Positions 1 through 39,369 of a stretch of DNA of 40,263 bases are shown here, piece after piece (within the stretch, counting starts at the first letter, position 1; every line of letters begins with the position of its first letter). The stretch spans positions 1-40,263 of the IMG/VR virus record IMGVR_UViG_3300034022_000226; one strand, given 5' to 3'. The DNA is from a virus. The notes beneath the pieces were generated by a model. That model did not search any database, was not told the origin of the DNA, and saw nothing but the letters and a program-made list of their open reading frames with translations. The translations under genes were made by a program, and so were the position numbers.

Positions 1-172
1 AGCTGCGGATAAACTAAAGAATGCAGCAATGACTAAGAAACTAGCCATATTTGATGCATTTGAGATACTGAACAGGATAGAACTAGAAAGAGAAAACATT
101 GACTCAATACGCAATGGAGTAAGTAAAACAGATACAAAACAAGGATTTGCAGAAAGAAGGTCAAAACAATAA
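1..172 (+). CDS. C-terminal end of an upstream gene, possibly terminase small subunit (partial)
   Basis: An open frame enters from the window edge (frame starting at base 2) and runs 56 codons to a TAA at 170-172. The visible part is charged and helical, ending in ...GFAERRSKQ. It overlaps the start of the large terminase frame by 26 bases, which suggests translational coupling. Its place directly before the large terminase makes a small terminase subunit the obvious guess, but no DNA-binding domain is visible in this fragment, so the function is inferred from position only. Confidence 0.5.
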   Translation, partial: AADKLKNAAMTKKLAIFDAFEILNRIELERENIDSIRNGVSKTDTKQGFAERRSKQ

Positions 173-4828: not shown

Positions 4829-4847
4829 AAATATCAAATTTTTTATA

Positions 4848-4855
4848 TATTTTTG
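4848..4855 (+). promoter_or_regulatory. Possible Bacteroidota-type -7 box (TATTTTTG)
   Basis: TATTTTTG matches TAnnTTTG and sits 20 bases before the ATG of the scaffold candidate, in a 47-base gap. No convincing TTTG -33 box lies 19-21 bases upstream, so this is weak. It could allow the scaffold and capsid genes to be expressed above the terminase-portal pair. Confidence 0.35.
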
Positions 4856-4875
4856 TATAAATAAAATCAAATCAA

Positions 4876-5970
4876 ATGGAATATAAAGTAAGATCATTAG
4901 ACGTAATTGAACCAAAAAGTGTTCAAGAAGTAGAAACAGAATTGCTTGACAAACACGAACAGTCATTAAGTAATGTACAACAAGAGATACAATTTGTTGA
5001 AAATAATGTACAAGAAAATGCACCGAATTTAAGTGCTGATTTAAAAGAAGAAGATGTTCTTTCATATATTGGGAAAAGATACAATAAGCAAATAAACTCA
5101 TTTGATGAGTTAATGGCTGAACGTAAAGAAAGTGAAGATTTGCCTGAAGATGTTTCAGCTTATATGAAGTATAAGAAAGAAACAGGACGGGGATTCGATG
5201 ACTTTGTTAAGTTAAAGAAAGATTTTGATTCAATGGACTCTGAACAACTTCTTAAAGATTATCTTATATCTACACAAGAAGGTCTTGATAGTAACGATAT
5301 AGATACATTATTAGAAGATTACAGATTCGATGAAGATATTGACGATGAATTAACTATTAAAAAAGTTAAAATCGCCAAAAAGAAAGTTGTTGCTGAAGCT
5401 AAGAAATACTTCAACTCTCAGAAAGAGAAATACAAAATGCCCCTTGAGTCAAGTGAGGCATTCGTTTCCGATGATGAGAAAGAGATGTACCAAAGTTATA
5501 AGCAATATACCAAACAAGCAAAGACAATAGAAGAAGAGAACACACGTAAGCGTCAATGGTTTGACCAAAAGACAAATGATGTATTTGACAACGAGTTCAA
5601 AGGTTTTGAGTTCAATGTTAATAACAAAAAAGTTACGTTTGCTCCCGGTGATGCCTCTGAGTTAAAGAAGAACCAATCAACTCCACAAAACTTTATAAAC
5701 AAGTTTTTAGATGAGCAAGGTTTAATGAAAGACGCTGCAGGTTATCATAGATCACTGTCAATAGCAATGAACCCTGACAAGTTTGCTAAGTTCTTTTATG
5801 AACAAGGATTGTCTGATGCCACTGAAGATGTTATGCGTAAAACCAAAAACATTAATATGTCAGAGCGGAGAGCACCTGAAGTTAGCAAAACTACAGACGG
5901 AATGCAGGTTAAAGCGATAAACCCTGACTCAGGACGAAATCTGAGGATTCGCAGTATAAAAAAGATTTAA
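4876..5970 (+). CDS. Putative capsid scaffolding protein
   Basis: Not recognised by a motif. The 364-aa product is very acidic and helical in its first two thirds (many E/D/K, no Cys) and ends in a basic tail (RNLRIRSIKKI). An acidic helical body with a basic C-terminal capsid-binding tail is the usual shape of a scaffold, and its place between portal and major capsid genes is the standard scaffold position. No Ser-His protease signature is seen. The leader AAATCAAATCAA precedes the ATG, as in several genes of this phage. Function is inferred from position and composition. Confidence 0.6.
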   Translation: MEYKVRSLDVIEPKSVQEVETELLDKHEQSLSNVQQEIQFVENNVQENAPNLSADLKEEDVLSYIGKRYNKQINSFDELMAERKESEDLPEDVSAYMKYKKETGRGFDDFVKLKKDFDSMDSEQLLKDYLISTQEGLDSNDIDTLLEDYRFDEDIDDELTIKKVKIAKKKVVAEAKKYFNSQKEKYKMPLESSEAFVSDDEKEMYQSYKQYTKQAKTIEEENTRKRQWFDQKTNDVFDNEFKGFEFNVNNKKVTFAPGDASELKKNQSTPQNFINKFLDEQGLMKDAAGYHRSLSIAMNPDKFAKFFYEQGLSDATEDVMRKTKNINMSERRAPEVSKTTDGMQVKAINPDSGRNLRIRSIKKI

Positions 5971-5991
5971 AAACATTTAAAAATTAAAAAA

Positions 5992-7410
5992 ATGGCAAGT
6001 GCATTATTAAACAATCCTACCTACGCCCTGCAGCCTTCTGCAGAACAGGTGGCATTGCAAACAAACTACATTACCAACTTTAACTTCTTGAATCAGTATC
6101 TACCTGATACTTATGAGAAAGAATTTGAGCGTTATGGTAACAGGACAATCGCATCTTTTCTACGTATGGTAGGAGCAGAGATGCCGTCTAACTCTGACCA
6201 AATTAAATGGGCAGAACAAGGACGTTTACACATCAAGTACACAAGTTGTACTTCAGCAGCAGCAGCAGCTTCTGCAACAGCAACCTTTACTGTAGCTGAT
6301 AGTGGTGTAACTTACATAGCTATCCGTGTTGGACAGACTTTGATGATTCAAAATAATTCATCAGGTGTTTTTAACAAAGCTATTGTAACTGCAGTAGGTT
6401 CCGCAACAACCTTCACTGTAGCTTATTATGAGACTGCAGGTCAAGCATTTGCAGTATCTACAGCTTGTACTGTATTCATTTATGGTTCTGAGTTTAAAAA
6501 AGGAACTAACGGAATGGTTGGTTCATTGGAATCAGAAGATGATATCTACAGCAATAACCCTATTATCATTAAAGATAAGTATGCGGTTAATGGTTCTGAT
6601 ATGGCTCAAATTGGATGGGTTGAAGTTACAACTGAGAATGGTGCTACAGGATACTTGTGGTACTTGAAATCAGAGCACGAAACTCGTCTTCGTTTTGAAG
6701 ATTATCTTGAAACCTCAATGATTGAAGCAGTTCCTGCTGCAGCTTCTTCCGGTGCTGCAACTGCAGGTTACATTGGATCTGAAGGTATTTTCTACGTAGT
6801 AAATGCTCGTGGTAACGTATGGGGTGGTGGTACTCCAACAACTTTGTCTGATTGGGATTCTATCGTTTCTCGTTTGGATAAGCAAGGTGCTATTGAAGAA
6901 AACGTAGTATTTGTTAATCGTGGTCTTAGTTTTGATATTGACAATATGTTAGCTACATTGAATGGTTACGCTACAAGCGGAGCTGCTAATGCTGCATCTT
7001 ATGGTCTTTTTGATAACGATGTTGATATGGCGTTAAATTTAGGTTTCTCAGGTTTCCGTAGAGGTTATGATTTCTACAAAACTGATTGGAAATACTTAAA
7101 CGATCCAACAATGCGTGGTGGTTTGAGTAGTGCTGCTGCAACTGCAACAGGTACTATTACAGGTTTGATGGTTCCTGCAGGTTCTACCTCAGTTTACGAT
7201 CAGATTATGGGCAAGAATGCTAAACGTCCTTTCTTACACGTTAGATATCGTGCTTCTGAAGCTGAAGATCGTCGGTATAAGACTTGGATTACAGGTTCTG
7301 CCGGTGGAGCTGCTACTAGCGACTTGGATGCAATGGAGGTTAACTTCCTTTCTGAGCGTTGTGTATGTACTCTTGGAGCAAATAACTTTGTATTGTTCCG
7401 TTACGGATAG
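5992..7410 (+). CDS. Major capsid protein
   Basis: 472-aa shell protein. The N-terminal segment (NQYLPDTYEKEFERYGNR, then IASFLRMVGAEMPSNSDQI, residues about 35-71) and the C-terminal end (MEVNFLSERCVCTLGANNFV, then LFRYG) are typical of HK97-fold capsid proteins of crAss-like and related Bacteroidota phages; this is a memory-based match. An Ala/Thr/Val-rich stretch (about residues 80-165) reads as a beta-rich insertion domain. Usage of GCT, GGT and CGT codons is stronger than in neighbours, as in highly expressed genes. It is preceded by a 21-base A-rich leader and followed 17 bases after the stop by a strong intrinsic terminator, so its transcript can end on its own. Confidence 0.85.
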   Translation: MASALLNNPTYALQPSAEQVALQTNYITNFNFLNQYLPDTYEKEFERYGNRTIASFLRMVGAEMPSNSDQIKWAEQGRLHIKYTSCTSAAAAASATATFTVADSGVTYIAIRVGQTLMIQNNSSGVFNKAIVTAVGSATTFTVAYYETAGQAFAVSTACTVFIYGSEFKKGTNGMVGSLESEDDIYSNNPIIIKDKYAVNGSDMAQIGWVEVTTENGATGYLWYLKSEHETRLRFEDYLETSMIEAVPAAASSGAATAGYIGSEGIFYVVNARGNVWGGGTPTTLSDWDSIVSRLDKQGAIEENVVFVNRGLSFDIDNMLATLNGYATSGAANAASYGLFDNDVDMALNLGFSGFRRGYDFYKTDWKYLNDPTMRGGLSSAAATATGTITGLMVPAGSTSVYDQIMGKNAKRPFLHVRYRASEAEDRRYKTWITGSAGGAATSDLDAMEVNFLSERCVCTLGANNFVLFRYG

Positions 7411-7427
7411 TCAAAGAAGGTCAATAT

Positions 7428-7459
7428 GGAGGGTGTCTTTAAAGACACTCTCCTTTTTT
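7428..7459 (+). terminator. Intrinsic terminator after the capsid gene
   Basis: A hairpin with arms GGAGGGTGTCTT and AAGACACTCTCC (one G-T pair) is followed directly by TTTTTT at 7454-7459. It begins 18 bases after the capsid TAG. Its upper stem is one of five copies of the palindrome GTGTCTTTRAAGACAC (7433-7448). Confidence 0.85.
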
Positions 7460-7481
7460 AAATCAAATTAAATTAAATAAA

Positions 7482-8225
7482 ATGGCAAAAGCTACAGGAA
7501 GTACAGATAAATTATATAAATTAAAAGGTGGAAACCCTCTTTCTTACACATTAGCATCAAGGAATCACCCTCGTTTTCCACTAATGTGGTTTGATGAGAA
7601 GAACAACCAAAATCGTGCTTTAAGGTATTCAGTAAACCAAAAGTCTCCTTTTGAGGATGAACAAGATGGGAATGCTATTATTGAGCCGATTATATTTGAA
7701 GATGGATTTTTAAGAGTACCAAGAACAAATCCTGTTTTACAACAGTTTTTACATTACCATCCATTGAATGGCAACATATTTATGGAGGTAGATAAAGAGA
7801 AAGATGCAAGTACAGAGGTTGAGGACTTGAATATAGAAGTAGATGCTCTAGTTGAAGCTCGTCAGCTTACACTTGACCAAATTGAGACATTAACAAGAGT
7901 TTTATTTGGAAAAGACCCATCAACAGTATCAACTGCTGAGTTAAGAAGGGATATTTTGGTGTATGCTAAAACAGACCCTAAAGGATTTTTGAATGTATTA
8001 AACGATCCTGAGTTGAGATTTCAAGCTAAAGTTCGTTTATTCTTTGAAAATAAATTATTAATATTAAGAAATTCAGAGAAAGAAGTATGGTTTAATACCA
8101 TTACCAATAAAAAGAAAATGTTGTCAGTTCCGTTTGGAGAAGACCCATACGATATGGTTGCCCACTTCTTGCAAAGCGATGAAGGATTGGACTCACTGAA
8201 GATGCTTGAATCATCTTTAGCCTAG
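7482..8225 (+). CDS. Capsid-adjacent virion protein of unknown role
   Basis: 247 aa, not recognised by name. The N-terminal part (KLKGGNPLSYTLASRNHPRF) is followed by a basic/aromatic segment and an acidic linker (about residues 105-125), then a helical domain. It carries no enzyme motif, signal peptide or membrane segment. It lies between two intrinsic terminators, one after the capsid gene and one after itself, so it probably relies on read-through from the capsid transcript or on an unseen promoter. The position suggests a capsid accessory or head-completion protein; that is inference. Confidence 0.7.
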   Translation: MAKATGSTDKLYKLKGGNPLSYTLASRNHPRFPLMWFDEKNNQNRALRYSVNQKSPFEDEQDGNAIIEPIIFEDGFLRVPRTNPVLQQFLHYHPLNGNIFMEVDKEKDASTEVEDLNIEVDALVEARQLTLDQIETLTRVLFGKDPSTVSTAELRRDILVYAKTDPKGFLNVLNDPELRFQAKVRLFFENKLLILRNSEKEVWFNTITNKKKMLSVPFGEDPYDMVAHFLQSDEGLDSLKMLESSLA

Positions 8226-8260
8226 TAGATTCTTGATTTTTGATTGATTAGTGATTAAAG

Positions 8261-8292
8261 AAGGGGGCACTTATTGTGTCCTCTTTTTTTTA
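8261..8292 (+). terminator. Intrinsic terminator after the 247-aa gene
   Basis: Stem AGGGGGCAC / GTGTCCTCT with a TTATT loop and two G-T pairs, followed by a run of T from 8284. It lies about 35 bases after the TAG and directly before a promoter-like site. Confidence 0.75.
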
Positions 8293-8302
8293 TGTATATT
8301 TG
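8274..8302 (+). promoter_or_regulatory. Bacteroidota-type promoter (TTG ... TATATTTG)
   Basis: TATATTTG at 8295-8302 fits TAnnTTTG exactly and lies 14 bases before the ATG at 8317. A TTG at 8274-8276 is 18 bases upstream, slightly shorter than the usual 19-21. Because a terminator stands immediately upstream, the neck and tail genes beyond need a new start, which supports this call. Confidence 0.55.
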
Positions 8303-8316
8303 TAAAAAAAGAACTA

Positions 8317-9267
8317 ATGATAAATGGAGTAAGAAATGCTGTTTTATCAGTACTTAATAAAAATAATTACGGATATATATCTCCTTCTGATTTTAATTTG
8401 TTTGCAAATAATTCTCAAATGGAGATTTATGAAGAATATTTTAGTAGTTATAATAAAGTTATAAATGCTGAAAATACTCGTACATCAGGTGTAGAATATG
8501 CTGATATGGAACAACCCATTGCAGAGGTTTTAGAATATTTTTTAAGGACAGATTATTTATCAAAAATTTCTGCTAATAAATTCTCAATGCCAACACCAAC
8601 CACTACAGGATATAATACATATATGTTGTTGGATGTTAAATGTAAACCTGTTATTCTTAAAACAGGTACAAATACAAGTGTAGTTTCTTTACAATTAGTT
8701 GATAGTACTGCATTATTTACTACATATGGTATTGCTGCAGGAGATGTTGTAACTAATTTAACTACAGGGTTAGTATCTACAGTAGTTTCTGTAGTAAGTA
8801 ATACAGTTTTATCATTAGATTCAAATATATTTTTAGCATCAGGTAATTCCTATGTTATTATTTCTTCCGCTACTATTGTTCAAACAGAAAAAGTAAATAA
8901 TTCAAAACTTGGGTTATTGGTTAATTCCAATTTAACTGTTCCAACAATTGAGTTCCCTGTTTATGGACTACAAGGTTCAGAGTTAACTTTTTATCCTGTT
9001 ACTATAACCAATAAGGGTCAAGTAGAAGCAACTTATTTTAGGTATCCGGAAGTACCAAAATGGACTTATATCTCATTAGCTAATGGTGAACCTGTATTTG
9101 ACCAATCTCAACCTGATTATAAAGACTTTGAGTTACCTATTGAAGATGAGTATAAATTAGTAACTAAGATACTTGAGTATTGTGGTATGTCAATTAGAGA
9201 AATAGAAGTTACTCAGTTTGGGTTAGGTCAAGAACAAGCTCAAAAGCCTACATTTAGTATGCAATAA
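8317..9267 (+). CDS. Putative head-tail connector (ring/neck) protein
   Basis: 316 aa starting MINGVRNAVLSVLNKNNYGY. I chose the ATG at 8317. An in-frame GTG at 8251 would give 22 more residues, but those codons run through the terminator hairpin and the promoter, so they are not coding. The N-terminal helical part is followed by a Thr/Val/Ser-rich beta insertion (about residues 110-190) and a C-terminal segment (QSQPDYKDFELPIEDEYKLV). The arrangement before a gp4-like adaptor gene suggests a ring or connector component; the exact role is inferred. Confidence 0.6.
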   Translation: MINGVRNAVLSVLNKNNYGYISPSDFNLFANNSQMEIYEEYFSSYNKVINAENTRTSGVEYADMEQPIAEVLEYFLRTDYLSKISANKFSMPTPTTTGYNTYMLLDVKCKPVILKTGTNTSVVSLQLVDSTALFTTYGIAAGDVVTNLTTGLVSTVVSVVSNTVLSLDSNIFLASGNSYVIISSATIVQTEKVNNSKLGLLVNSNLTVPTIEFPVYGLQGSELTFYPVTITNKGQVEATYFRYPEVPKWTYISLANGEPVFDQSQPDYKDFELPIEDEYKLVTKILEYCGMSIREIEVTQFGLGQEQAQKPTFSMQ

Positions 9268-9281
9268 TAAAATTTTAAAAG

Positions 9282-10205
9282 ATGGCATATATATCACAAT
9301 ATGAATATTATGAAAATGGAGGTGTAGTCCCTGAAGATAAAAATTGGGGATCATACCAATATGTTAGTTTGACGGACATTGTTAATAACTTTTTATTAAT
9401 GTACTCAGGAAACCATTCATTGGTTAACAATGAAGAGCGTTTCAAGGTATTGTTCCACGCTAAACGTGCAATACAAGAATTAAATTACGATGCATTTAAG
9501 GAGATTAAAATATTAGAATTAACAGTACCTGATAATTTAAGGTACATATTACCATCTGATTACGTCAATTGGGTTCGTGTATCGTTGTATAAAGATGGAT
9601 GGTTGCGTCCATTATCTGAGAATATTCAAACACTTTCATCAAGAGCATATCTTCAAGACAATACAGGAAGGATTTTATTTGACCAAGATGGTAATGCACT
9701 TTCTCCTCAATACTCAGAGATAGACTACGACAGGCTAACGCATATTAAAAAAAGTATATACCTTAATCAAGGAAGCCAATTTAATGGTCAACTTGGATGG
9801 AATTATGATGGTATGTGGTATTTTGATTACAGTATAGGAACAGCGTATGGATTAAATACTGAGACAGCTAATTTTAATCCTACATTTAATATTGAAAGAA
9901 AGACAGGAGTTATTAATTTTGACTCGTCAATGGCAGGAGAATCTTGTATTCTTGAGTATATATCAGATGGTATGGAGCAAGGAGACAACTCTTTAATAAC
10001 AGTAAATAAGTTATTTGAGGCATATGTTTATGCAGCAGTTGAGTATGAGATATTGAGTTCTAAACTTGGTATACAAGAATATATTATTGCTCGTTCTCGT
10101 AAAAAAAGAAAAGCATTGTTAAATAATGCAAAGATTAGAATCAGTAACATTCATCCCGGCAGACTCTTAATGAATATGAGAGGTATGGACAAGCAAATAA
10201 AATAA
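9282..10205 (+). CDS. Putative head-tail adaptor / tail tubular-like protein
   Basis: 307 aa. The segment VSLTDIVNNFLLMYSG, the FHAKRAIQELNYD helix (about residues 65-78) and PSDYVNWVRVSLYKDGWLRP (about residues 88-107) are familiar from connector proteins of Bacteroidota podoviruses annotated as tail tubular or P22 gp4-like. It would form a ring below the portal. The C-terminus is basic (RSRKKRKALLNNAKIR). It sits 14 bases after the previous gene and one base before the next, so it belongs to one transcript with them. The name rests on remembered family patterns. Confidence 0.6.
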   Translation: MAYISQYEYYENGGVVPEDKNWGSYQYVSLTDIVNNFLLMYSGNHSLVNNEERFKVLFHAKRAIQELNYDAFKEIKILELTVPDNLRYILPSDYVNWVRVSLYKDGWLRPLSENIQTLSSRAYLQDNTGRILFDQDGNALSPQYSEIDYDRLTHIKKSIYLNQGSQFNGQLGWNYDGMWYFDYSIGTAYGLNTETANFNPTFNIERKTGVINFDSSMAGESCILEYISDGMEQGDNSLITVNKLFEAYVYAAVEYEILSSKLGIQEYIIARSRKKRKALLNNAKIRISNIHPGRLLMNMRGMDKQIK

Positions 10206-10206
10206 A

Positions 10207-13200
10207 ATGGCAAATTTCACAAGGAACTTTATAGCAGGAAGGATGAATAAGGTTGTTGACCAACGTCTTTTACCTGAAGGTGAGTATATTGATGCTATGA
10301 ATATTAGGATGGGTTCTACAGAGAACTCAGAGATTGGTGTTATTGAAAATACAAAAGGCAATCTACCTATTATACCATTAACATATATAGATGGAACACC
10401 ATTAAGTGCAACTGCAAGATGTATTGGTGCTATTCAAGATAGTGCTAACGAGACTATATATTGGTTTGTTCACGATGATAATTTTAGTGTTGGAGCTACA
10501 GGTAAACTTGATTTAATAGTATCTTATAATGTATATACAAAATTATTGACATACCACGTTATTAGCATTAATGATGGTAGTAATGTAGATACAACTTTAA
10601 ATTTCAATCCAAGTTATCTTATTACAGGAGTTGACATTATTAATGGGTTGTTATTTTTTACTGATGATTACAATGCTCCAAGATTTATTAATGTATCAAG
10701 GAATTACGCTAATCCAATTGCCAACATAGACCAAACAAGTGCAGAGTCTTTGCTTGTAATTAAAAAACCACCTACTGAATCTCCTTCTATTGAGCCTATT
10801 GTAACAAGTGGGCAAGAGAATTATTTAGATACAAGATTTATTTGTTTTGCATATAGGTACTTGTATATTGATGGAGAGTATAGTGCAACATCACAATGGT
10901 CTCAACCTTCATTTATTCCAAATCCTTTTAGTTTTAGTATAGGAAGTTTCTTAAATGAAGGGATGACTAACTTTTGCAATTCAGTTATAATAACTTATGA
11001 CTCAGGTGGTCCACTTGTAGTTGGTATTGACTTATTATTTAAACAATCTAATAGTAATATTATTAAAGTTATTGAGAAATTAAATAAGTTAAATTTAGGA
11101 TTTGCAAATAATACTGATTATAATTATACATTTACAAATAGCAAAATTTTTACAATATTAGCTGAAAGTGAATTATTGAGATTATATGATAATGTACCTA
11201 GATACGCTAAGGCTCAAACAATTATGGGCAACAGGTTAATGTATGGTAATTATGTTGAAGGATATAATTTAGTTGATGAGTTTGGTAGTCCTATTAAATT
11301 TGAATATACTACTGAGTTAATATCTACTCCTATAGGAAATTCAGATATTATTGATGGATCAAATTCAAGTAATTACACAATTGATATACCTACAAATATT
11401 GCAGATTCTGAAGTAACATTTGACTTAACAGGGCAAAATTTAGTTCAAGGAGCTTCTTTTAATTTAGAAGTAAGTATAACTCATTCTCAATTTACAGGTC
11501 AAACACCTTTTCCTACTGAAACTACAGATGTAGTAGTATTAAATTTTGCATTTTTTTTATCTACATCATATACATCAGTATATGCATTAGCAACAAGCAT
11601 TGAATTTCAAAATGCAATAGGAACTGCTTTAAATATACAAACAGTACCTGCTAATTATTGTACAGGAATAACATTTACTGATTCAGTAAATTGTGCTCTT
11701 CCTAATAACTTAGATGCATATATAAAATCAGGAAGTGGTATTAGTGCTGTTGGTCAGCCTGTTACAATTATAACAAGTCCCGGAAGTAGTATAATAGGAC
11801 TTCAGTTTCTTGCAATGCAATATGTAGATAACATAATAACTCCAACTCAAACTTTTTATGAGTATTATGAAACATTGTATGTAAATGCCACTTTTCAAGA
11901 AATAGCAAATCCACAAAGTTTACATAGTAATCGTGATTACGAGATTGGCATAGTTTATATGGATGAATTTAATAGAGCAACAACTGCTTTAGTTAGTCCA
12001 AATAATACTGAACACGTTCCTTGTGGATTTTCTTCTTATCAAAATTCTATACAAGTAACTATACCACCTACTCAATTACCTCCTGCTTGGGCAAAAAGAT
12101 ATAAGTTTGTTATTAAGCCTGATGAAGAAAATTATGAGACAATTTATTGTAGTATATACTTCCAAGACCCATTAACAAATAACGCATACCTTTTACTTGA
12201 AGGTGAAAATGCAAGAAAAACAGAGGTAGGTGATAGATTAATTGTAAAAGCTGATTCAAATGGAGCAATTTCTAGTTGTGTTTATACAACTGTGTTAGAA
12301 AAATCTGCTCAAACATCAAATTTCATTGAAATACCAAGTGAATTAGACCCTACTGTTTTTATACCTGTTCCTGCAGGAGTGTATATTAAAGTAAATCCAA
12401 ATAGTTTTACTGTTGTTCAAGATGAATTAGCTGTTATTGCTCCCGGAAAAAAACTTGTAACTGCTCCAAGTCCTACATTTGCTCCCGGATATTTTCCAAC
12501 ACTTCATTATCCAATGAATATAACTAGAACAGCAGGATTTGATCCATTAAATCTTACTTGGATATATTCTGATTATACTGTTCCATCAGGAAGTAGGATT
12601 ATTATGAGCATAAAACAATATAGAGTAGGGGTAGGTTGTAATTGTAATGAAAGGTCAAGTACATTAGAAAAAACTATAATAGCTTCTAGGAATTATGATA
12701 ATATGTATGATTGGTGGATAGGAGATAATATTGATCAACTTTTAAACGATGCTATAGTAACTGCATCTTGTGGTAACACCCCTTCTGTAAATACATTTAT
12801 TCCCGGACTTCTTAATCCAACTGCACCTACAGGAATAGGTACAAACTATTATCAATTTTATAGAAATACAACTACTAATGAGTTAGAATTAATGATTACA
12901 GGTACAGTAAGTTGTTATGGTATTGGATTTCCAAATAGTCGTGCTTCTAATGTTGAAGCAAATTTTACAGTATATCGTGCTGAAAATAATTTAATATTTG
13001 AAACAGAACCATCTGATGCTTTACCTGATGTATTTTTTGAAAATGAAATGTCATTTGCTATTACAGGTGGTAATCATATGGGTAATATTCAAAACCAAAA
13101 TATAGGTACGAGTACACCTGCAATTGTTGATACTAAATTTTTTAACTGTTTTGCATTCGGAAATGGAGCAGAAAGTTATAAAATTCGTGACTCAATTATT

Positions 13201-14655
13201 GGTAGGTCTTTTAATTTTGGTAATAGAGTTACAAGTGTTTCTGCACAAGACTACAAAGCAACTGATAGATTCTCAGATATTACTTATAGTGGTGTATATA
13301 ATGCTGAGTCAAATATAAATAAGCTAAATGAATTTAATCTAGGACTATTAAACTATAAAAACTTAGAGACATCATTTGGAGATATTTTTGTATTGGATGG
13401 TAGGCAAACTGATGTGCTTGTTTTACAAGAAGACAAGATATCATATGTATTATCGGGTAAGAATTTATTGTCAGATTCTACAGGTGGTGGTGCAGTAACC
13501 TCCGTTCCTGAAGTATTAGGTACTCAAATTGCTCGTACTGAGAAGTATGGCATTAGTTTTAATCCTGAGAGTTATATCCAATGGGGATACGATAGATATT
13601 TTACAGATGTAAAACGTGGTGTAGTTATCCAACTAAGAGGCGATTCAAGCTCAAATGACCAACTAAAGGTGGTATCTGAAATGAATATGAGGACTTGGTT
13701 TAGAGATACATTTAACGAGTCATTTAATACACAAAAACTTGGTGGGTTTGATCCATATATGAATGAATATGTTTTGTCAAACAATGACATAGCGTTACCA
13801 TCTAATCCTCAATGTATAAACTGTGGTATTTCTCAAGTATTTAACTTGTCAACAGGAGAAGAAGAGATAAAACAAATGATTTATTGTGTTGATTTAGGTC
13901 CAACAATTGGATTGTCTGATATTGTTTATGGAGTTATAGCTATATCAGTAGGAGCTGAATTTGAGATAATTGTTGATTATAATGGCACTATTGATACCAC
14001 AGGATTAGTAAATACTTCAGGCACTTTAACATTTGACAAAGACACTGTTTCGGTAGAAACTGCAACTATTACAATAAATTACACAGGAGATATTACATTA
14101 AGTGTTCTTGCTGATTGTTGTAATGCTGCTTCTTTAAGTATCGTGCAAATTGTTCTTACAAGTGATTCTAGTTCAGGAGATACAGTTCATACTCAATATA
14201 GGTTTGTAAGTGGAGCATTTGTTTCTCCATTGCAGTCAAGTTTTGTAATCTTTGCTGATGGGACTACTAATCCACTTGTTTCAAGGTACAATATAACAAC
14301 AGACTTTGTTGGTACGGGAGGATTTCCACCTGCAGGAAGTGTAATGAGTTTAATTTCAAACCAATTTGCAACTGATACATTTGTATTTGATACAGCTAAT
14401 GACAAATTTAAGTACCTTGTTTCAGACACTTTATATGCAAATACTACTGTTGATATAAATACTTTGTTAGGTTTAGCAACAACTGCAACACCTAATTTAG
14501 GTAGTGGATCATATAATTATGCAGACTTTACTGTTCCAACACTTGAAAATTATTTATATTTGATATGGGATTTCAGAAAATCAGTTCCTGTTACACTTTG
14601 TTATTCAGATATAGATTTAGATGACGTTTGTTGTAACTGTGGAGTAGCACCTTAA
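10207..14655 (+). CDS. Giant tail stabilization / hub protein
   Basis: 1482 aa. The N-terminus (NFIAGRMNKVVDQRLLPEGE, then YIDAMNIRMG) is the recognisable start of proteins annotated as phage stabilization protein in Bacteroidota phages, thought to plug or extend the podovirus tail (compare P22 gp10 and the crAss muzzle). The sequence is beta-rich throughout, with Asn/Thr/Ser repeats and few helices. Cysteine clusters occur as GVGCNCNERS (about residue 815), ADCCNAAS and the C-terminal DDVCCNCGVAP. No signal peptide or membrane segment is seen. It ends in TAA and is in the same frame as the next gene, with three codons between the stop and the next ATG. Confidence 0.7.
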   Translation: MANFTRNFIAGRMNKVVDQRLLPEGEYIDAMNIRMGSTENSEIGVIENTKGNLPIIPLTYIDGTPLSATARCIGAIQDSANETIYWFVHDDNFSVGATGKLDLIVSYNVYTKLLTYHVISINDGSNVDTTLNFNPSYLITGVDIINGLLFFTDDYNAPRFINVSRNYANPIANIDQTSAESLLVIKKPPTESPSIEPIVTSGQENYLDTRFICFAYRYLYIDGEYSATSQWSQPSFIPNPFSFSIGSFLNEGMTNFCNSVIITYDSGGPLVVGIDLLFKQSNSNIIKVIEKLNKLNLGFANNTDYNYTFTNSKIFTILAESELLRLYDNVPRYAKAQTIMGNRLMYGNYVEGYNLVDEFGSPIKFEYTTELISTPIGNSDIIDGSNSSNYTIDIPTNIADSEVTFDLTGQNLVQGASFNLEVSITHSQFTGQTPFPTETTDVVVLNFAFFLSTSYTSVYALATSIEFQNAIGTALNIQTVPANYCTGITFTDSVNCALPNNLDAYIKSGSGISAVGQPVTIITSPGSSIIGLQFLAMQYVDNIITPTQTFYEYYETLYVNATFQEIANPQSLHSNRDYEIGIVYMDEFNRATTALVSPNNTEHVPCGFSSYQNSIQVTIPPTQLPPAWAKRYKFVIKPDEENYETIYCSIYFQDPLTNNAYLLLEGENARKTEVGDRLIVKADSNGAISSCVYTTVLEKSAQTSNFIEIPSELDPTVFIPVPAGVYIKVNPNSFTVVQDELAVIAPGKKLVTAPSPTFAPGYFPTLHYPMNITRTAGFDPLNLTWIYSDYTVPSGSRIIMSIKQYRVGVGCNCNERSSTLEKTIIASRNYDNMYDWWIGDNIDQLLNDAIVTASCGNTPSVNTFIPGLLNPTAPTGIGTNYYQFYRNTTTNELELMITGTVSCYGIGFPNSRASNVEANFTVYRAENNLIFETEPSDALPDVFFENEMSFAITGGNHMGNIQNQNIGTSTPAIVDTKFFNCFAFGNGAESYKIRDSIIGRSFNFGNRVTSVSAQDYKATDRFSDITYSGVYNAESNINKLNEFNLGLLNYKNLETSFGDIFVLDGRQTDVLVLQEDKISYVLSGKNLLSDSTGGGAVTSVPEVLGTQIARTEKYGISFNPESYIQWGYDRYFTDVKRGVVIQLRGDSSSNDQLKVVSEMNMRTWFRDTFNESFNTQKLGGFDPYMNEYVLSNNDIALPSNPQCINCGISQVFNLSTGEEEIKQMIYCVDLGPTIGLSDIVYGVIAISVGAEFEIIVDYNGTIDTTGLVNTSGTLTFDKDTVSVETATITINYTGDITLSVLADCCNAASLSIVQIVLTSDSSSGDTVHTQYRFVSGAFVSPLQSSFVIFADGTTNPLVSRYNITTDFVGTGGFPPAGSVMSLISNQFATDTFVFDTANDKFKYLVSDTLYANTTVDINTLLGLATTATPNLGSGSYNYADFTVPTLENYLYLIWDFRKSVPVTLCYSDIDLDDVCCNCGVAP

Positions 14656-14664
14656 AAAAAACAT

Positions 14665-15966
14665 ATGGCAATAAGTTCATCATATTATATAAATGCACCC
14701 TCTCTTGGGTCAGCAACTGCTGTATTTACAGACAGTTCATTGTTAACGTGTGCTGCTGATGGGTTCTATTCAGATGGTGTTATATCAAGAGAACAAGTAG
14801 GTTGCGTATTGTTGCCACAACAAACTTGTCCATCTTGTGCTACACCTTGTGGTACGATTATATCAGCAAGTGGAGAGCAAGGAATTTATTTGCTTGACAT
14901 AGAAACAGGAAACACAGGTGGTGATGTAGGTGCTGTTATAGTAAGATTTGAACCATACGGTGTACCTGATGGGATAAGAGCCACACTTGGGGTAAATGTC
15001 TATAATAAATTAACATCATCAGTAGATGGTTTACACGAAAGTACAAATGCAGGATCGTTTACATTTGTAGGTGAAATAGGGTCTGATTGCGGAATATCAG
15101 GAACAACTTACCCTGCTTTAACTGAATATTTATACAATGGTACATCATTTGTTGCAACAGGAGGCACTCAAAGTGTAACTGTCGCACCGGGAGATGTATC
15201 TTTAGGAGCAACAGCTCCTGGAAATTGCTTAATGGTTATACCAAAAACTACAGCATCTCCTTCAATAATTAATTTTGAGGTAGTTGGTCCTTGTAGTGGA
15301 ACAGCTTGGGACATATCAGTAGCTTGTCCTGTATTACTTACAGGATTTAGTTCAAGTGTAATGGCTGCTAGTTCAGCAGCAGCTTGTTTACTATCTGAAA
15401 CAGTTACTTATTATAATGCATCATTGGCAAATACTCCGGGCACTATTGGGTTATATGACTTTGTATATTTAGATGCTTATGGCTCTACTCAATTACCTGC
15501 AGGATTTTACCTTGCCACAGGGTCAATAACAGGTGGGAATGATTGGTTTGAAGTAGATGCTGATGGAGTTGTAATTAGTTTAGGAGTTTGTACACCACCT
15601 GCTGTAACAACATTTACAGGAGACTTTACTTTATGTGTACAGGCAGGAGCTACTGCAGATTACAGAGCACAGGACGGAAGTGCTACTTCAGGACACTTTA
15701 CAACAACAGCTACCATAATAGCTCCTAATTGCAGTGGACCTGTTAATGTTAGTGGAACTTTAACATCTGCACAAGGACCGTTAATAATTTTAGTTCCATC
15801 TGTTCCTAGTGGAAGCACAGCTACAATTGTTGCGCAGGGTATTGGAGCTACCAATGCTGTTATTACAACAGGTGTGGTAAGTGGTATTTTACGAATTATA
15901 ATAACACCAAATAGCTATCCTTCAACTGTTACATTAAATGGAACATTAACTGTTACGTTCCCATAA
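14665..15966 (+). CDS. Tail spike / fibre-like structural protein
   Basis: 433 aa, almost entirely beta-type sequence rich in Gly, Thr, Ser and Val. The N-terminus (YYINAPSLGSATAVFTDSSL followed by DGFYSDG) is a small domain often seen in tail proteins of Bacteroidota phages, commonly just after a Cys-rich CCxC motif. Here that motif ends the previous protein. A second Cys cluster (CPSCATPCG, about residues 55-63) follows. The C-terminal 120 residues look like an Ig-like or carbohydrate-facing domain. A role at the tail tip or in receptor contact is inferred. Confidence 0.55.
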   Translation: MAISSSYYINAPSLGSATAVFTDSSLLTCAADGFYSDGVISREQVGCVLLPQQTCPSCATPCGTIISASGEQGIYLLDIETGNTGGDVGAVIVRFEPYGVPDGIRATLGVNVYNKLTSSVDGLHESTNAGSFTFVGEIGSDCGISGTTYPALTEYLYNGTSFVATGGTQSVTVAPGDVSLGATAPGNCLMVIPKTTASPSIINFEVVGPCSGTAWDISVACPVLLTGFSSSVMAASSAAACLLSETVTYYNASLANTPGTIGLYDFVYLDAYGSTQLPAGFYLATGSITGGNDWFEVDADGVVISLGVCTPPAVTTFTGDFTLCVQAGATADYRAQDGSATSGHFTTTATIIAPNCSGPVNVSGTLTSAQGPLIILVPSVPSGSTATIVAQGIGATNAVITTGVVSGILRIIITPNSYPSTVTLNGTLTVTFP

Positions 15967-15979
15967 ATAATAAATAAAA

Positions 15980-16765
15980 ATGGCAAATTATACATTGACA
16001 TATAGTGATATGGTTGGAGGATGGGTATCTTTTTACTCATACTACCCTGATTGGATGATTGGAATGAACAACTATTTCTATACTTTTAAAGGAGGAAATA
16101 TATATAGGCACAATGTAAATGCTCAAAGAAATACATTTTATGGTGAATTTACTCCTAGTACTCTACAAAGTGTATTAAATACGGCTCCTTTAGAGAACAA
16201 ATTATTTAAAACCATTAATCTTCAAGGAGATTCAATATGGAGTGTTACATTAGAAACAGACCTACAATACTCAGGGTATATAGAAAGTGCTTGGTTTGTA
16301 AAGAAAGAAGCCTCTTATTTTGCATTTATAAGGAACAACTCAGTAGGTGAACTTGCTCTTAGGAGCGTGAATGGTATAGGTAGAAGCTATCAAGTTACAG
16401 GAAGTGGAGTAGCAGTAGTAGTTAAATTCTCTGTTTCACCATTGATTTCTATAGGAAATATAATAAGTGTAGGAGATTACCTATACTTCTCATTGCCTCC
16501 TTATACTGCCCCTGTATTAGCAGGAAAGGTTACCTTAATTACAGTTGACCTTCCAAGTGGTGTAAACCAATTAACTATTGATACGACCATTCCGGGAACA
16601 ACCCCAATACCTATTCAAGATGCGTTTTTCTTATATATTAAAAACTCAGTAGCCGAGTCTCACGGAGTACTTGGTCACTACTGTACATTTAGTATTGAGA
16701 ATACATCAAGTAGCAAAATTGAGCTATTTGCAGTGCAATCAGAAGTAATGAAAAGTTTTCCTTAA
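15980..16765 (+). CDS. Tail hub-associated structural protein
   Basis: 261 aa. The beginning (TYSDMVGGWVSFYSYYPDWM followed by NNYFYTFKGGNIYRHN) is a pattern found in the stabilization/hub region of Bacteroidota phages, sometimes as the C-terminal part of the larger protein. The rest is beta-rich. It carries no catalytic motif. The 13-base A-rich gap to the previous gene suggests co-transcription. Likely a tail component next to the large hub protein. Confidence 0.55.
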   Translation: MANYTLTYSDMVGGWVSFYSYYPDWMIGMNNYFYTFKGGNIYRHNVNAQRNTFYGEFTPSTLQSVLNTAPLENKLFKTINLQGDSIWSVTLETDLQYSGYIESAWFVKKEASYFAFIRNNSVGELALRSVNGIGRSYQVTGSGVAVVVKFSVSPLISIGNIISVGDYLYFSLPPYTAPVLAGKVTLITVDLPSGVNQLTIDTTIPGTTPIPIQDAFFLYIKNSVAESHGVLGHYCTFSIENTSSSKIELFAVQSEVMKSFP

Positions 16766-16777
16766 ATTTGTGATAAT

Positions 16778-17188
16778 ATGGGGTTAAATATACGAGAACT
16801 AAACGAAAATGATTACGATGAAATTCTTGTAGGATGGTGGAAACAGTGGGGATGGGAACCTCCTAAAAGAGATTTCCTTCCAAATGATGGTAAAGGTGGT
16901 GTTATAGTGTATGATGAAGATGTTCCCGTTTGTGCAGGGTTTATGTACATAACCAACTCAAAAGCAGCGTGGGTAGATTGGATAATATCAAACAAGGAAT
17001 ACACAAAAAAACCACAAAGAAAGGATGCCATTAAGTTATTGGTATCAGCACTTACAGATATTTGTGAAAAATCAGGAAATAAATATATATACGCATTAAT
17101 TAAAAATGAGAGTCTTATAAATACATACCAAGATTTAGGGTATGTGCAAGGAAGTACTTACACAAAGGAAATGATAAAAATCTTATAA
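16778..17188 (+). CDS. GNAT-family N-acetyltransferase
   Basis: 136 aa with the GNAT layout: beta1 IRELNENDYDEI, a central strand pair GVIVYDEDVPVCAGFMYI, helix alpha3 after KPQRKDAIKLLVSALTDI, then IYALIKNESLINTYQDLGYV, the usual end of the fold. The acetyl-CoA pyrophosphate loop (R/QxxGxG/A) is not well conserved, so activity is uncertain. Family members transfer an acetyl group to an amine; the substrate here is unknown. Small GNAT genes within the structural block recur in Bacteroidota phages. An ATG follows TAAATTTG (16763-16770), a possible -7 box, though no -33 box is seen. Confidence 0.7.
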   Translation: MGLNIRELNENDYDEILVGWWKQWGWEPPKRDFLPNDGKGGVIVYDEDVPVCAGFMYITNSKAAWVDWIISNKEYTKKPQRKDAIKLLVSALTDICEKSGNKYIYALIKNESLINTYQDLGYVQGSTYTKEMIKIL

Positions 17189-17189
17189 T

Positions 17190-17738
17190 ATGGCAGTCAC
17201 AACAGCAGCAGTAATAGGTATAGTAGCAGCAGCAGGTTCAAGCACTATGTCCTTTGTACAAGCAGGTAATCAAAAGAAAGCACAACGTCAAGCTGAAGCA
17301 GATGCTGATAGAGCTATGCAAGCAGCTAGGCAAAAACTTGAAATAAATTATTATGACACATTAGCTGTACAAAAAGAACCGTATGAGTTAGAAAGAGAGG
17401 CACTATTAGCACAAGGAGCACAGGCTATACAAGCAGGTGTAGAAAGTGAAAGAGGTGTAGCAGCAACTGCAGGAAGAATACAAATGAGTATGAATGATGC
17501 ACAAGCAGGTGTAAGGTCTGCAATGGGTCAAGAGTTAAGTAATCTTGAAAAGATAAAGGTTCAAGAAGATAGTAGACTCCGTGATATAGGTACTCAATTA
17601 GATTTGGAAGAGGTTGCAGGTGCTCAATTAGCAGCAGCTAATAAGGAAGAGTTAAGTGCTAGATCATTGAAACAAGGTATGGAAGGTGTTACAAATTTAG
17701 GAAAACAAGTATTTAAAGCAGCTCCTTTATTTGGATAA
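17190..17738 (+). CDS. Small internal virion (ejection-like) protein
   Basis: 182 aa. The first 20 residues (TTAAVIGIVAAAGSSTMSFV) form a hydrophobic small-residue helix that could insert in a membrane. The rest is Ala/Gln/Glu-rich coiled-coil sequence. This matches the plan of T7 gp14-like internal virion proteins, which are ejected and sit in the host outer membrane during DNA entry. It begins one base after the GNAT stop and is followed by the 608-aa and 2290-aa proteins, reproducing a gp14-gp15-gp16-like order. Assigned by architecture and position. Confidence 0.55.
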   Translation: MAVTTAAVIGIVAAAGSSTMSFVQAGNQKKAQRQAEADADRAMQAARQKLEINYYDTLAVQKEPYELEREALLAQGAQAIQAGVESERGVAATAGRIQMSMNDAQAGVRSAMGQELSNLEKIKVQEDSRLRDIGTQLDLEEVAGAQLAAANKEELSARSLKQGMEGVTNLGKQVFKAAPLFG

Positions 17739-27840: not shown

Positions 27841-28055
27841 AATTTTTCTATTTCTTGTTTTACTTCATCCCAAAATCTCCATTCTTTATCTAATGGATAA
27901 TGATTCCAATTAATACAACTTCTTATTTCATCTATTGCTATTAATGCACAAGAAATAGCCATTGTTTCCATTTCTAATTGAGTTAATTCTGGATTTATAA
28001 CGCATTCAAACATATGCGTATATAATTGTTCTGCTTTTTCTTTTGGGTTACTCAT
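27837..28055 (-). CDS. Small phage protein, paralog of the 63-aa gene at 39536-39727
   Basis: 72 aa. The core MAISCALIAIDEI followed by FWDEVKQEIEKL is a pattern common in small proteins of Bacteroidota phages; the function is not known to me. The 63-aa protein near the right edge shares the layout (KxxAExL..., AISIAI...VDGI..., then WIDVIEYLEAKI). It overlaps the HNH gene by 8 bases and the next gene by ATGA. Confidence 0.65.
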   Translation of the reverse strand: MSNPKEKAEQLYTHMFECVINPELTQLEMETMAISCALIAIDEIRSCINWNHYPLDKEWRFWDEVKQEIEKL

Positions 28056-28581
28056 AAAAATTATTTTTAAAATGTGAAATTAAAATAGCATCTAAGTTGT
28101 TTGTATATATATTATTTAGCTTTTGACTTACTTGACCTAATGAAACTCCTTTATACTTTGCAAAATTGCCCATAGATTCAAATACTTTTTTTGTTTTTAA
28201 GCATAATACTTTTTTATTCAATCTTTCTCGTATTGCTTGTTTTTCATTTTTTGTTTTTTTATGAGGTATATAATTATCTGAACTTACAAAATGGTTTGTA
28301 TTTTCTTTTGCTGTTACCCATTCTAAATTAGATGAGTTGTTGTTGTGTTTATATAAATCTTTATGGTTAACATAGTTTTTGCCTTCTTGCTTTTCACAAA
28401 ACGATTCTGCAACTAATCTATGTACATAATATCTTTTTCTTTTATTTTTTTTATACAAAAGAACAACCATATACCTATCTGTAATAACATTAACAAGATG
28501 TTTATTTTTTTTTATATTAAGTATCTTGCCTGTATCCGATACCATATAATTTTCGTAACCTTCTATTTTCTTATAATTCAT
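28048..28581 (-). CDS. HNH homing endonuclease with NUMOD4 and NUMOD1-like domains
   Basis: 177 aa. The N-terminal NUMOD4 motif (KKIEGYENYMVSDTGKI, residues 4-20) is followed by the HNH nuclease (VHRLVAESF, then VNHKDLYKHNNNSSNLEWVT, about residues 54-93). A C-terminal DNA-reading helix like NUMOD1 (KKVFESMGNFAKYKGVSLGQ, about residues 132-151) completes the layout. Such free-standing enzymes cut DNA at specific sites and spread by recombination. The region is visibly poorer in G+C than the helicase next to it, a sign of separate origin. Its start overlaps the helicase stop by 11 bases. Confidence 0.85.
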   Translation of the reverse strand: MNYKKIEGYENYMVSDTGKILNIKKNKHLVNVITDRYMVVLLYKKNKRKRYYVHRLVAESFCEKQEGKNYVNHKDLYKHNNNSSNLEWVTAKENTNHFVSSDNYIPHKKTKNEKQAIRERLNKKVLCLKTKKVFESMGNFAKYKGVSLGQVSQKLNNIYTNNLDAILISHFKNNFYE

Positions 28582-29815
28582 TATTGTTATTTAAAAATGT
28601 TTTATCAAAATGTTTTAATGTATAGTCCTTCTTTTTAGTAACTGCCTTGTATATGTCTTTCTCTATGCCACCCTTTGAGAATATCCAATACACTTGATTC
28701 TCAAGCCTGTCTTTAGTAGTCATACGATCCTTGCTCTGCCAATAGCTAGTGGCACTGAAGTCAATATTGTAATATACTAAATACTTAGCGTGTCGTAAAG
28801 ATATTCCTTCTCTGCCGGAGACAATCTGCAATGCAATATTCTTGTCGGTGTCTTCAAAGACACTTAGCTCTGACGTTAACTCATCACCAAATACTTGCTT
28901 CAGCGCATTGAACTCTTCCTTGAACTTATAAAAGATTCCAATCTTGCATCCTTCAAATCTTTTCTTTATGAACTCAGCCTTGCTTAAATCAATTATCATA
29001 GACTCTCCACTCTCAAATTTAACTGTACCTGAGCATAGTTGATGTACCTTCATCATTAGTTTCACGGGTGTGTCTGCTAGTATTACCTCACCCTTTCCTT
29101 CAATCAATAAGTCCCTCTTTAGTTTCTTAATCAAGTTGTATGTCATCTCACTCATCTCTACCTCAAGTACCTCCTCAATGGTCTCAGCCTTGAATCCTGC
29201 CTCTGCCTGAGTGTAATTGATAGTGTACGGCTCCATAGCTTTAATAATTGATTCTAGTCCTTCGCTATAGTCCCTGATGAACAACCCGTTTATCTTCTTG
29301 TCTTTTACTTTCACGTACCTATCTGAGAACCTATAAAAGTTTGTAAACTCTCTGAATGGATTATTTGGTATGCCATAAACTTGATGGTACATCTGCGAGT
29401 ACGACTCAGGTGTGGGCGTTCCGGATAGGAGAATAACATTGGCTTTAGTCTTGGCAATCAAGTCCTTAACTTGAATAGCTCGTTTGCTTGGCTTGGGCAG
29501 AGCCGAACAGGAATGTGCTTCATCAATTACTATTAAATCCCATTTTAAGTCAGGCAGTTTATGTATGCTTTCGTAATTGATAACAGTAATGTCATAAGAG
29601 GGATTAAAAAGTTTGTAGTCGGCAGTAATTGAAGTTACTGCTTTCTTTTTAGTCAAGAACAAAACATTTTTACTTCCAATAGTTTCTGCTATGCCAAGAC
29701 TTGTAAGCGTTTTGCCACAACGAACTTCCATTGCCAAATAAACAAAGCCATACTCTTGGACTATCTTGCTTCCTTGCTTGATAATATCTACTTGGTAGTC
29801 TCTAAGTTCTAACAT
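28571..29815 (-). CDS. SF2 (SNF2/DEAD-type) DNA helicase
   Basis: 414 aa. Motifs in order: Q-motif RDYQ (Q8), Walker A MEVRCGKT (29-36), Ia LFLTKKK, motif II VIDEAH (96-101), motif III LLSGTP (129-134), a second RecA-like domain with IGIFYKF (about 295), motif V/VI IVSGREGISLRHA and SYWQSKDRMTTKD (about 333-375). These make a compact two-domain translocase typical of phage replication or recombination loci, comparable to other small phage SNF2-like helicases. The gene is bracketed by two HNH endonuclease genes that overlap both its ends. One copy of the 16-bp palindrome (28848-28863) lies within it. Confidence 0.9.
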   Translation of the reverse strand: MLELRDYQVDIIKQGSKIVQEYGFVYLAMEVRCGKTLTSLGIAETIGSKNVLFLTKKKAVTSITADYKLFNPSYDITVINYESIHKLPDLKWDLIVIDEAHSCSALPKPSKRAIQVKDLIAKTKANVILLSGTPTPESYSQMYHQVYGIPNNPFREFTNFYRFSDRYVKVKDKKINGLFIRDYSEGLESIIKAMEPYTINYTQAEAGFKAETIEEVLEVEMSEMTYNLIKKLKRDLLIEGKGEVILADTPVKLMMKVHQLCSGTVKFESGESMIIDLSKAEFIKKRFEGCKIGIFYKFKEEFNALKQVFGDELTSELSVFEDTDKNIALQIVSGREGISLRHAKYLVYYNIDFSATSYWQSKDRMTTKDRLENQVYWIFSKGGIEKDIYKAVTKKKDYTLKHFDKTFLNNNNEL

Positions 29816-30332
29816 AATATTTATTATTTAAAACATTTAAAATAGTACTTCTGTCTACATTATATTTTAACATAAAAATTTTTACATTACCAGGAAATAA
29901 AATAACATTTTTAATATTTCCTTTTATACAATTTTTTCTAATGTCAATTACTTCTAATTCTGACAACTTTCTAATTGGGTTTATCTTGTCTAAAGTATTG
30001 TAAGAATGACTTTCATTTTCAGAATAAGTACACCATTCTAAATTATTTAACCAATTATTTTCTTTATCTCCATCAATGTGATTTACACAGGGTTTATTTA
30101 ATGGGTTCTCAATAAAATACATTGCAACTAATCTGTGTACTTGAAATCTTTTTGTTTTCCCACTAATAGATAATGTAACTCTTTTATATCCTCTTGATGT
30201 TTCTTGTTTTAAAAATTTTCCTGACCTAACAGACCAAACTTCTCCATCAATATAAATTCTATAATTTCTTTCATATCCATTTATATGTTTATATCTAATA
30301 TAATCATATTCAATAATTTTTTGTGTTTCCAT
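29802..30332 (-). CDS. HNH homing endonuclease (NUMOD4-type)
   Basis: 176 aa. A NUMOD4-like start (HINGYERNYRIYIDGEVWSV, about residues 16-35) precedes the HNH core (VHRLVAMYF, then CVNHIDGDKENNWLNNLEWC, about residues 67-101) and a C-terminal helix (KYNVDRSTILNVLNNKYY) for DNA recognition. The coding region is extremely AT-rich compared with the helicase and primase. Its stop overlaps the helicase start by 14 bases. It is divergent from the other HNH gene, so a separate arrival is likelier than local duplication. Confidence 0.85.
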   Translation of the reverse strand: METQKIIEYDYIRYKHINGYERNYRIYIDGEVWSVRSGKFLKQETSRGYKRVTLSISGKTKRFQVHRLVAMYFIENPLNKPCVNHIDGDKENNWLNNLEWCTYSENESHSYNTLDKINPIRKLSELEVIDIRKNCIKGNIKNVILFPGNVKIFMLKYNVDRSTILNVLNNKYYVRT

Positions 30333-38147: not shown

Positions 38148-38163
38148 GTGTCTTTGAAGACAC
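38148..38163. repeat. Palindrome copy GTGTCTTTGAAGACAC
   Basis: Lies 14 bases past the stop of the amidotransferase fusion gene, in a 108-base gap with no gene. A further short stem (TCAGG/CCTGA, 38119-38136) lies beside it. It may end or process the transcript. Confidence 0.85.
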
Positions 38164-38177
38164 CCCCCTCGTAGAAT

Positions 38178-39275
38178 CTAGGCTTGAAGTCTCAAGACCT
38201 CAGACTCAGTGAACCACTCATCACAACCACAGCAATGATAATTTGAAAATGCATCGTGCTCCAAATCGTGAAAGCAATTTACACAAAACGGCTTTTCGTC
38301 TTGTACATTGAAGTCACAATCCTCTTCGTATAATGTCTCAGTAGGCGCATAATAGCTATCAAACAAGCTAACCGCATCACCATTGCTATACTTGTCCCAA
38401 CCTTTGCCCCAACCTAAAGTCTTAGGCTTTTTTATGTTATGGAAGTACGTTTTATGGTGAACCTTGCCTACCTCAGTCTCTTTAATATTGAAATATATCC
38501 AACAACTAAGTACAATACCTTTAACTTTTATGTCAATCTGCCTTCTCCTGTACCAATTCGGGTGACCCTCTAGCCTGTCCAACTCTTTTAGCTTTGTGTC
38601 ACTCACCTTGAATACGTCCACTTGCACGTTATAACCTACATCACTTTTGTCTATCAGGTAAGGTAAGCCACTTATAACCAATGGATATTTGTCTTTCGTG
38701 TATCCTTTGCCTACAAATTTGGACGAACTAAGGTAAGCATAGTAATTGCCATACCCTTTCTTTAACGTGCCGTAAACAGCCACTAAATTGTCCTCAATGA
38801 TATTTTTGCTATACCATACGCCATCTTTTTGCGTCCACAACTCTTTGTTGTACACCTGATAAGTCCGACTATGTACATTGATAGTCACAAACCGACTCTG
38901 ATGCTTCTCTAACTCTTTTTTCCAATGATGTCTAGGTATCTCGCCTAAGTTATTTGCAAGTACTCTTGAGTCACTCATTTGAGCGTTACCCAACCCTTGA
39001 ATAGTCCCGTTCATCATAAGCCACTCATTTTGATTCTTACCGCATTTGAATGGGTGCGTATTCTCTTTGTTGATTGCCCCGACTGTAGCATATCTAAAGT
39101 GTGCAATGAATGGACGCTCCGACTCTAATACTCTAAATTCTGCGCTCTTGTGGTAAGTTACCTCGAAAGTGTCGAGCCATATAATACCCAATCCGTGTGG
39201 ATTAATTCGTGCTGAAGTCTTTGCAACCTCTTTTGATACTTTCTTTCCCTTCTGCTTGATAATGATTATACACAT
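38178..39275 (-). CDS. Class II glutamine amidotransferase / gamma-glutamylcyclotransferase-like / zinc-ribbon fusion
   Basis: 365 aa in three parts. Residues 1 to about 155 are an Ntn-type glutaminase domain: Cys2 directly after Met (catalytic once Met is removed), NPHGLGIIW, FIAHFRYATVG (R61), NTHPF and MMNGTI (N89-G90). Residues about 163-265 are a GGCT/AIG2-like domain: VAVYGTLKKG (168-171 YGTL) and KLKELDRLEGHPNWYRR, with the expected catalytic Glu236. Residues 331-351 carry CVNC and CCGC, a small zinc ribbon. The first domain would release ammonia from glutamine; the second acts on gamma-glutamyl groups. Why they are joined is unknown; modification of an amino compound or nucleotide is possible. 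The leader has a short hairpin. Confidence 0.75.
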   Translation of the reverse strand: MCIIIIKQKGKKVSKEVAKTSARINPHGLGIIWLDTFEVTYHKSAEFRVLESERPFIAHFRYATVGAINKENTHPFKCGKNQNEWLMMNGTIQGLGNAQMSDSRVLANNLGEIPRHHWKKELEKHQSRFVTINVHSRTYQVYNKELWTQKDGVWYSKNIIEDNLVAVYGTLKKGYGNYYAYLSSSKFVGKGYTKDKYPLVISGLPYLIDKSDVGYNVQVDVFKVSDTKLKELDRLEGHPNWYRRRQIDIKVKGIVLSCWIYFNIKETEVGKVHHKTYFHNIKKPKTLGWGKGWDKYSNGDAVSLFDSYYAPTETLYEEDCDFNVQDEKPFCVNCFHDLEHDAFSNYHCCGCDEWFTESEVLRLQA

Positions 39276-39369
39276 ACTTGATTTGATTTGTAGGCAATGT
39301 CTTTTATAGACATAGAACCTGATTAATAAACTGATATTGAACGAAGGTACAACAATAAATAGACATAAC
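39276..39369 (-). promoter_or_regulatory. 94-base leader with hairpin before the amidotransferase fusion
   Basis: Contains ATGTCTTTTATAGACAT (39297-39313), a looser relative of the 16-bp palindrome, and the AATCAAATCAA leader close to the ATG. A minus-strand TATTGTTG (39350-39357) is one base off TAnnTTTG, so a promoter is possible but weak. Confidence 0.3.

Follow-up and report, generated by a model that had tools for sequence, protein, structure and literature searches.

The 40,263-base stretch of viral DNA analysed here as a whole (the window) encodes a protein in which a class-II (Ntn) glutamine amidotransferase (GATase) domain is fused to a GGACT (AIG2-like) cyclotransferase domain and a Cys4 ribbon (Table 1). 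The fusion gene sits in an early replication block, near genes for an SSAP, an exonuclease and a helicase. The window is probably a fragment because many relatives span 50-65 kb. Its structural genes occupy positions 147-17738 and one of their products is matched by Pfam crAss muzzle-protein domains, pointing to a putative crAss-related Bacteroidota phage. Two HNH/NUMOD4-type homing-endonuclease-like genes (28048-28581 and 29802-30332) flank a helicase-like gene of the window.

Table 1. Features of the fusion gene and its surroundings (window coordinates; residues refer to the fusion protein).
Feature	Position	Strand	Remarks
Palindrome GTGTCTTTGAAGACAC	38148..38163	no strand	just 3' of the fusion gene; copy of an iterated element
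Fusion protein gene	38178..39275	minus	365 aa; start ATG, stop TAG; class-II (Ntn) glutamine amidotransferase + GGACT + Cys4 ribbon
Cys4 ribbon	38223..38285	minus	residues 331-351; C331-x2-C334 ... C348-x2-C351
GGACT (AIG2-like) cyclotransferase domain	38484..38783	minus	residues 165-264; YGTL 168-171; predicted catalytic Glu236, codon 38568-38570
GATase domain	38796..39275	minus	residues 1-160; Cys2 codon 39270-39272; R61, N89-G90, D102
Imperfect copy of the palindrome, TGTCTTTTATAGACA	39298..39312	no strand	fusion gene leader

The three-domain make-up had been proposed by a sequence-only reading of this DNA. It is confirmed by Pfam, PHROG and Foldseek matches and by the Cys4 motif, and Cys2, R61, N89-G90, YGTL and E236 lie where that reading placed them. 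The amino-terminal domain is a predicted class-II (Ntn) glutamine amidotransferase. Pfam GATase_4 (PF13230) matches residues 55-95 barely over its cut-off (23.2 versus 23.0 bits), GATase_6 also matches this domain, and the PHROG hit is to glutamine-fructose-6-P aminotransferase (E 2e-6). A weak profile match (E 0.005) to solved GFAT and class-II GATases aligns the R and NG residues to GFAT, while D102 is equated with the class-II GATase Asp by position only. Cys2 directly follows the initial Met and would be exposed on Met removal. The glutaminase domain of GFAT/GlmS is likewise an Ntn domain with RxAT and NG motifs, but the fusion is devoid of the sugar isomerase domain and has a GGACT domain attached instead. 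Fold and domain matches for this part of the protein are consistent, if weakly, with the assignment.

The middle domain is a predicted GGACT/AIG2-type cyclotransferase of the BtrG/GGCT fold. PF06094 (GGACT) covers residues 165-264 (E 2.9e-21, 76.7 bits versus a cut-off of 22.8), the PHROG match is to gamma-glutamyl cyclotransferase (E 1.7e-21), and sequence matches were found to PDB entries 2kl2, 1vkb and 3jub. E236 aligns with the E of LDDFED in mouse GGACT. The AlphaFold model of the fusion is of moderate quality (pLDDT 76, pTM 0.45), with a low-confidence linker between the GGACT domain and the ribbon. Submitted to Foldseek, as the sequence-only reading had recommended, its GGACT part matches 3jub (TM 0.75 by target, rmsd 1.7, E 7e-9) and also 3juc, and GFAT chains are retrieved as well, mostly with prob 0.9-1.0. 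The fold, the YGTL loop and the catalytic Glu align between the fusion and human/mouse GGACT (3jub, 3juc, 1vkb), which is a single-domain cellular enzyme in contrast to the multi-domain phage protein. Human/mouse GGACT acts on gamma-glutamylamines such as gamma-glutamyl-epsilon-lysine.

Relatives of the fusion were found in 190 IMG/VR stretches by a profile scan, 80 of which were retained, in two MAG contigs labelled Cytophagales and Flavobacteriales, and in two GenBank phages (MW202828 and C75C1) where the protein is annotated only as 'gamma-glutamyl cyclotransferase'. Residues C2, R61, H74, N89, G90, D102, YGTL and E236 are invariant in all 83 aligned sequences. The claims of two intact active sites and of a link to glutamine/gamma-glutamyl chemistry hold. 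The sequence-only reading would have been undermined by an assembly error or by a catalytic Cys or Glu that varies among homologs: both residues are invariant, and an artefactual origin of the fusion is ruled out by the many independent contigs and the two GenBank phages. The four ribbon cysteines are intact in 82 of the 83 sequences. The ribbon is absent from the C75C1 clade and lies between both enzyme domains in three relatives (L073-L075); since its position and presence are mobile, it is more likely accessory than catalytic.

A second protein is encoded upstream of the fusion in 68/68 relatives that have at least 3.5 kb of upstream sequence, at a distance of 0.5-4.9 kb (median 1.8 kb). 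The 574-aa 'hypothetical protein' encoded directly upstream of the fusion gene in MW202828 belongs to this family. Neither Pfam nor PHROGs recognizes the partner, and PF12224 (Amidoligase_2) matches 0/26 members even at E<=1, while an in-house profile of canonical phage amidoligases matches members of the type found in L065 (E 1e-5 to 5e-5). Its predicted structure (pLDDT 93.1, pTM 0.92) retrieves from the PDB glutamine synthetase, the gamma-glutamylmethylamide synthetase GmaS and YbdK, most with prob of at least 0.9, and from the BFVD viral models many 'Amidoligase enzyme' entries with prob 1.00. Comparing the partner profile with individual amidoligases gave no significant results, whereas profile-profile comparison with seven phage amidoligases did (hhalign, 95.4%, E 1.9e-8). 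GxExE, DxS, E, CGxH and EFR motifs occur in identical order in the partner family and in phage amidoligases. Judged by predicted structure and profile comparison, the upstream partner is a divergent amidoligase of the glutamine synthetase fold, and it points to an amidoligase family without annotation that was overlooked by Pfam and PHROGs.

No amidoligase gene lies inside the window, but its sequence stops 988 bp upstream of the fusion gene, a shorter distance than the gap in most relatives. The ligase could not be seen by the sequence-only reading because its expected spot falls past this end. Small ORFs between amidoligase and fusion differ among loci, the commonest (~50 aa) being found in 12, and no substrate-like small ORF is common to all loci. 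A conserved gene coding for ~213 aa is present near the amidoligase in 25/29 loci, ~3.4 kb upstream of the fusion (16160-16768 in MW202828), and gave no Pfam match among the members scanned.

Gene order shared inside the window's own phage group partly reflects plain genome conservation, so it is weak evidence for the pairing. A second clade is represented by phage C75C1 (OQ984151). A comparison of 17 window proteins gave a C75C1 match for the fusion alone (44% identity over 267 aa), against 17/17 for MW202828. The two-domain fusion of C75C1, like that of the window type, has an amidoligase gene upstream, at 0.86 kb, but the fusion is ribbon-less, the amidoligase is a canonical PF12224 member and the other 16 window proteins are unmatched. 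An upstream amidoligase is found in 10/12 C75C1-like IMG/VR loci and the other two hold just 1.2-1.5 kb of upstream sequence. The fusion is thus constantly close to an amidoligase in two clades that are distinct in sequence.

Phage amidoligase cassettes are widespread, although no function has been shown for them in the literature surveyed. Adjoining genes 97, 98 and 99 of Arthrobacter phage Salgado code for GGACT, amidoligase and GATase_6 proteins: by family, these are the three activities of the fusion and its partner, but distributed over three separate genes. No ATP-grasp protein is annotated among the five Salgado genes seen. Further examples, hand-picked and non-random like Salgado, have lone relatives of the fusion domains near amidoligase sets. 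They comprise the LUZ24-like phage UFV-P2 (PMC3890496), CW02, phiEco32, Vp_R1, Acinetobacter phage vB_AciJM_313, the OM43 phages MEP401/402 (PMC10580990) and the oyster-associated Zobellviridae phage all-k141_1748665; in Alcaligenes phage QDWS535 the ligase is ~4 kb from a GGACT gene. The sets of phiEco32, UFV-P2, CW02, Vp_R1 and all-k141_1748665 share with the window type the enzyme families and a place in the early region close to genes for replication. The known amidoligase/GAT-II/GGCT (AIG2)/ATP-grasp sets are made of separate genes, usually with an ATP-grasp ligase, while here GATase, GGACT and ribbon are in one chain and the amidoligase is too divergent for Pfam and PHROGs. No ATP-grasp family member was detected among the 32 window and 34 MW202828 proteins scanned, which are part of each protein set. 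The cassette as such is already known; new are the two-activity fusion with its ribbon, a system with no visible ATP-grasp protein, and the unrecognised amidoligase family.

Because relatives pair with an amidoligase and separate-gene equivalents exist, the fusion is read as a fused variant of the known cassette. It is probably a compact form in which Ntn ammonia supply and GGACT editing serve the amidoligase. The Ntn domain would hydrolyse glutamine through Cys2 and supply ammonia to the amidoligase, an enzyme that would spend ATP to give a carboxylate substrate an amide or gamma-glutamyl bond. Linkages of this class would also be the target of the GGACT domain, which would cyclise gamma-glutamyl groups off amines as 5-oxoproline and so edit or deprotect the product, and the ribbon would be an accessory docking element. 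The glutaminase, cyclotransferase and ligase activities, as well as their coupling, are predicted from the protein families. The presence of two of the three activities in one chain is an argument for a single pathway that includes both glutamine hydrolysis and gamma-glutamyl removal. The fusion also leaves a system of just two proteins, amenable to joint production and assay. The earlier idea that a gamma-glutamyl or amino group is installed and trimmed fits this scheme once an ATP-dependent ligase is added, but the DNA base proposed among its targets is without support.

The most likely substrate of the cassette is a protein or a peptide of the host cell wall or surface, small molecules being possible; the two readings that follow are substrate choices inside the fused-cassette explanation. 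Modification of the host surface is a tentative choice: amidation or gamma-glutamylation of peptidoglycan or another surface peptide by the cassette would alter adsorption or lysis and exclude competing phages. Enzymes of the LtsA/AsnB type amidate the cell-wall diamino acid by means of a class-II GATase and an ATP-dependent amide former, a precedent that counts in its favour. Iyer et al. 2009 (Mol Biosyst) are cited for the phage amidoligase gene sets and reportedly put forward the host-surface idea for phiEco32. The cell-wall or superinfection role suggested for phiEco32 is repeated in later papers, which ascribe such a host-surface role to phage amidoligase/GATase sets (PMC10580990; PMC11318856). 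No direct experiment on this role was found in the literature surveyed, and it would require a cytoplasmic wall precursor as substrate.

Tagging of proteins or peptides is a more doubtful choice. Here a protein of the host or the virion would receive glutamyl or amino groups from the amidoligase, and isopeptide-like gamma-glutamyl-amine links would be removed by the GGACT domain. GGACT is the best structural match, the substrates of GGACT enzymes are gamma-glutamyl-amines (PMC12756093) and the ribbon could dock a protein substrate, but no conserved substrate gene was found between amidoligase and fusion. It is a rather unlikely proposal that the divergent amidoligase of glutamine synthetase fold and the fused glutaminase/cyclotransferase mark a macromolecule of the host or the virion by writing and erasing a gamma-glutamyl or amide group, which, if true, would be a chemistry not yet shown for phages.

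An improbable alternative is that the fusion acts alone in catabolism, draining glutamine, gamma-glutamyl-amines or glutathione in the course of infection. The two active sites are both intact and each reaction is lytic when alone, but an ATP-dependent amidoligase steadily accompanies the fusion in two clades, which argues for a joint pathway, and a plain drain leaves the ligase unexplained. The drain of glutathione suggested by the sequence-only reading is not favoured either, the closest solved relatives being GGACT enzymes, not the glutathione-specific ChaC. It is highly improbable that the fusion helps to equip a phage DNA base with a gamma-glutamyl or amino side chain, which is chemically conceivable and would suit its location in the replication block, since no base-hypermodification family (dUMP hydroxymethylase, base kinase, glycosyltransferase or 7-deazaguanine) was found among the 32 window proteins and 34 proteins of the complete relative MW202828 that were scanned, the only thymidylate-related match being a ThyX-type thymidylate synthase of MW202828.

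The palindrome that was noted beside the fusion gene is real, but neither it nor the hairpin leader is special to this gene. The window holds five such 16-mers, this one included (GTGTCTTTNAAGACAC-like; positions 7433, 21839, 28848, 34073 and 38148). The MW202828 version, GTGTCGTTAACGACAC, is found at 14 sites (e.g. 16038, 19946 and 21221), mostly around early genes. TGTC-N2-9-GACA occurs 10 times in the window, versus 3.0 expected, and no shuffle reached 10. A hairpin or terminator specific to the fusion was rejected, as the palindrome recurs throughout the genome; promoter-like sites are at chance level. The iterated palindrome may be a regulator site or an RNA hairpin.

Homologs of GroEL and GroES are also encoded by most relatives, ~5-7 kb upstream of the fusion and on the opposite strand (12964-14854 in MW202828). 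Seven contigs (L064-L070), representing two diverged variants, have an in-frame TGA at fusion codon 118 in place of an invariant Trp (e.g. 8969-8971 in L065). Phage-wide recoding of TGA to Trp was rejected for these contigs, as no tRNA turned up and translating TGA as Trp gains little elsewhere. The changes downstream of the TGA are still mostly synonymous (15 to 6), a pattern suggestive of read-through, of reinitiation or of a shared mutation that is fairly recent.
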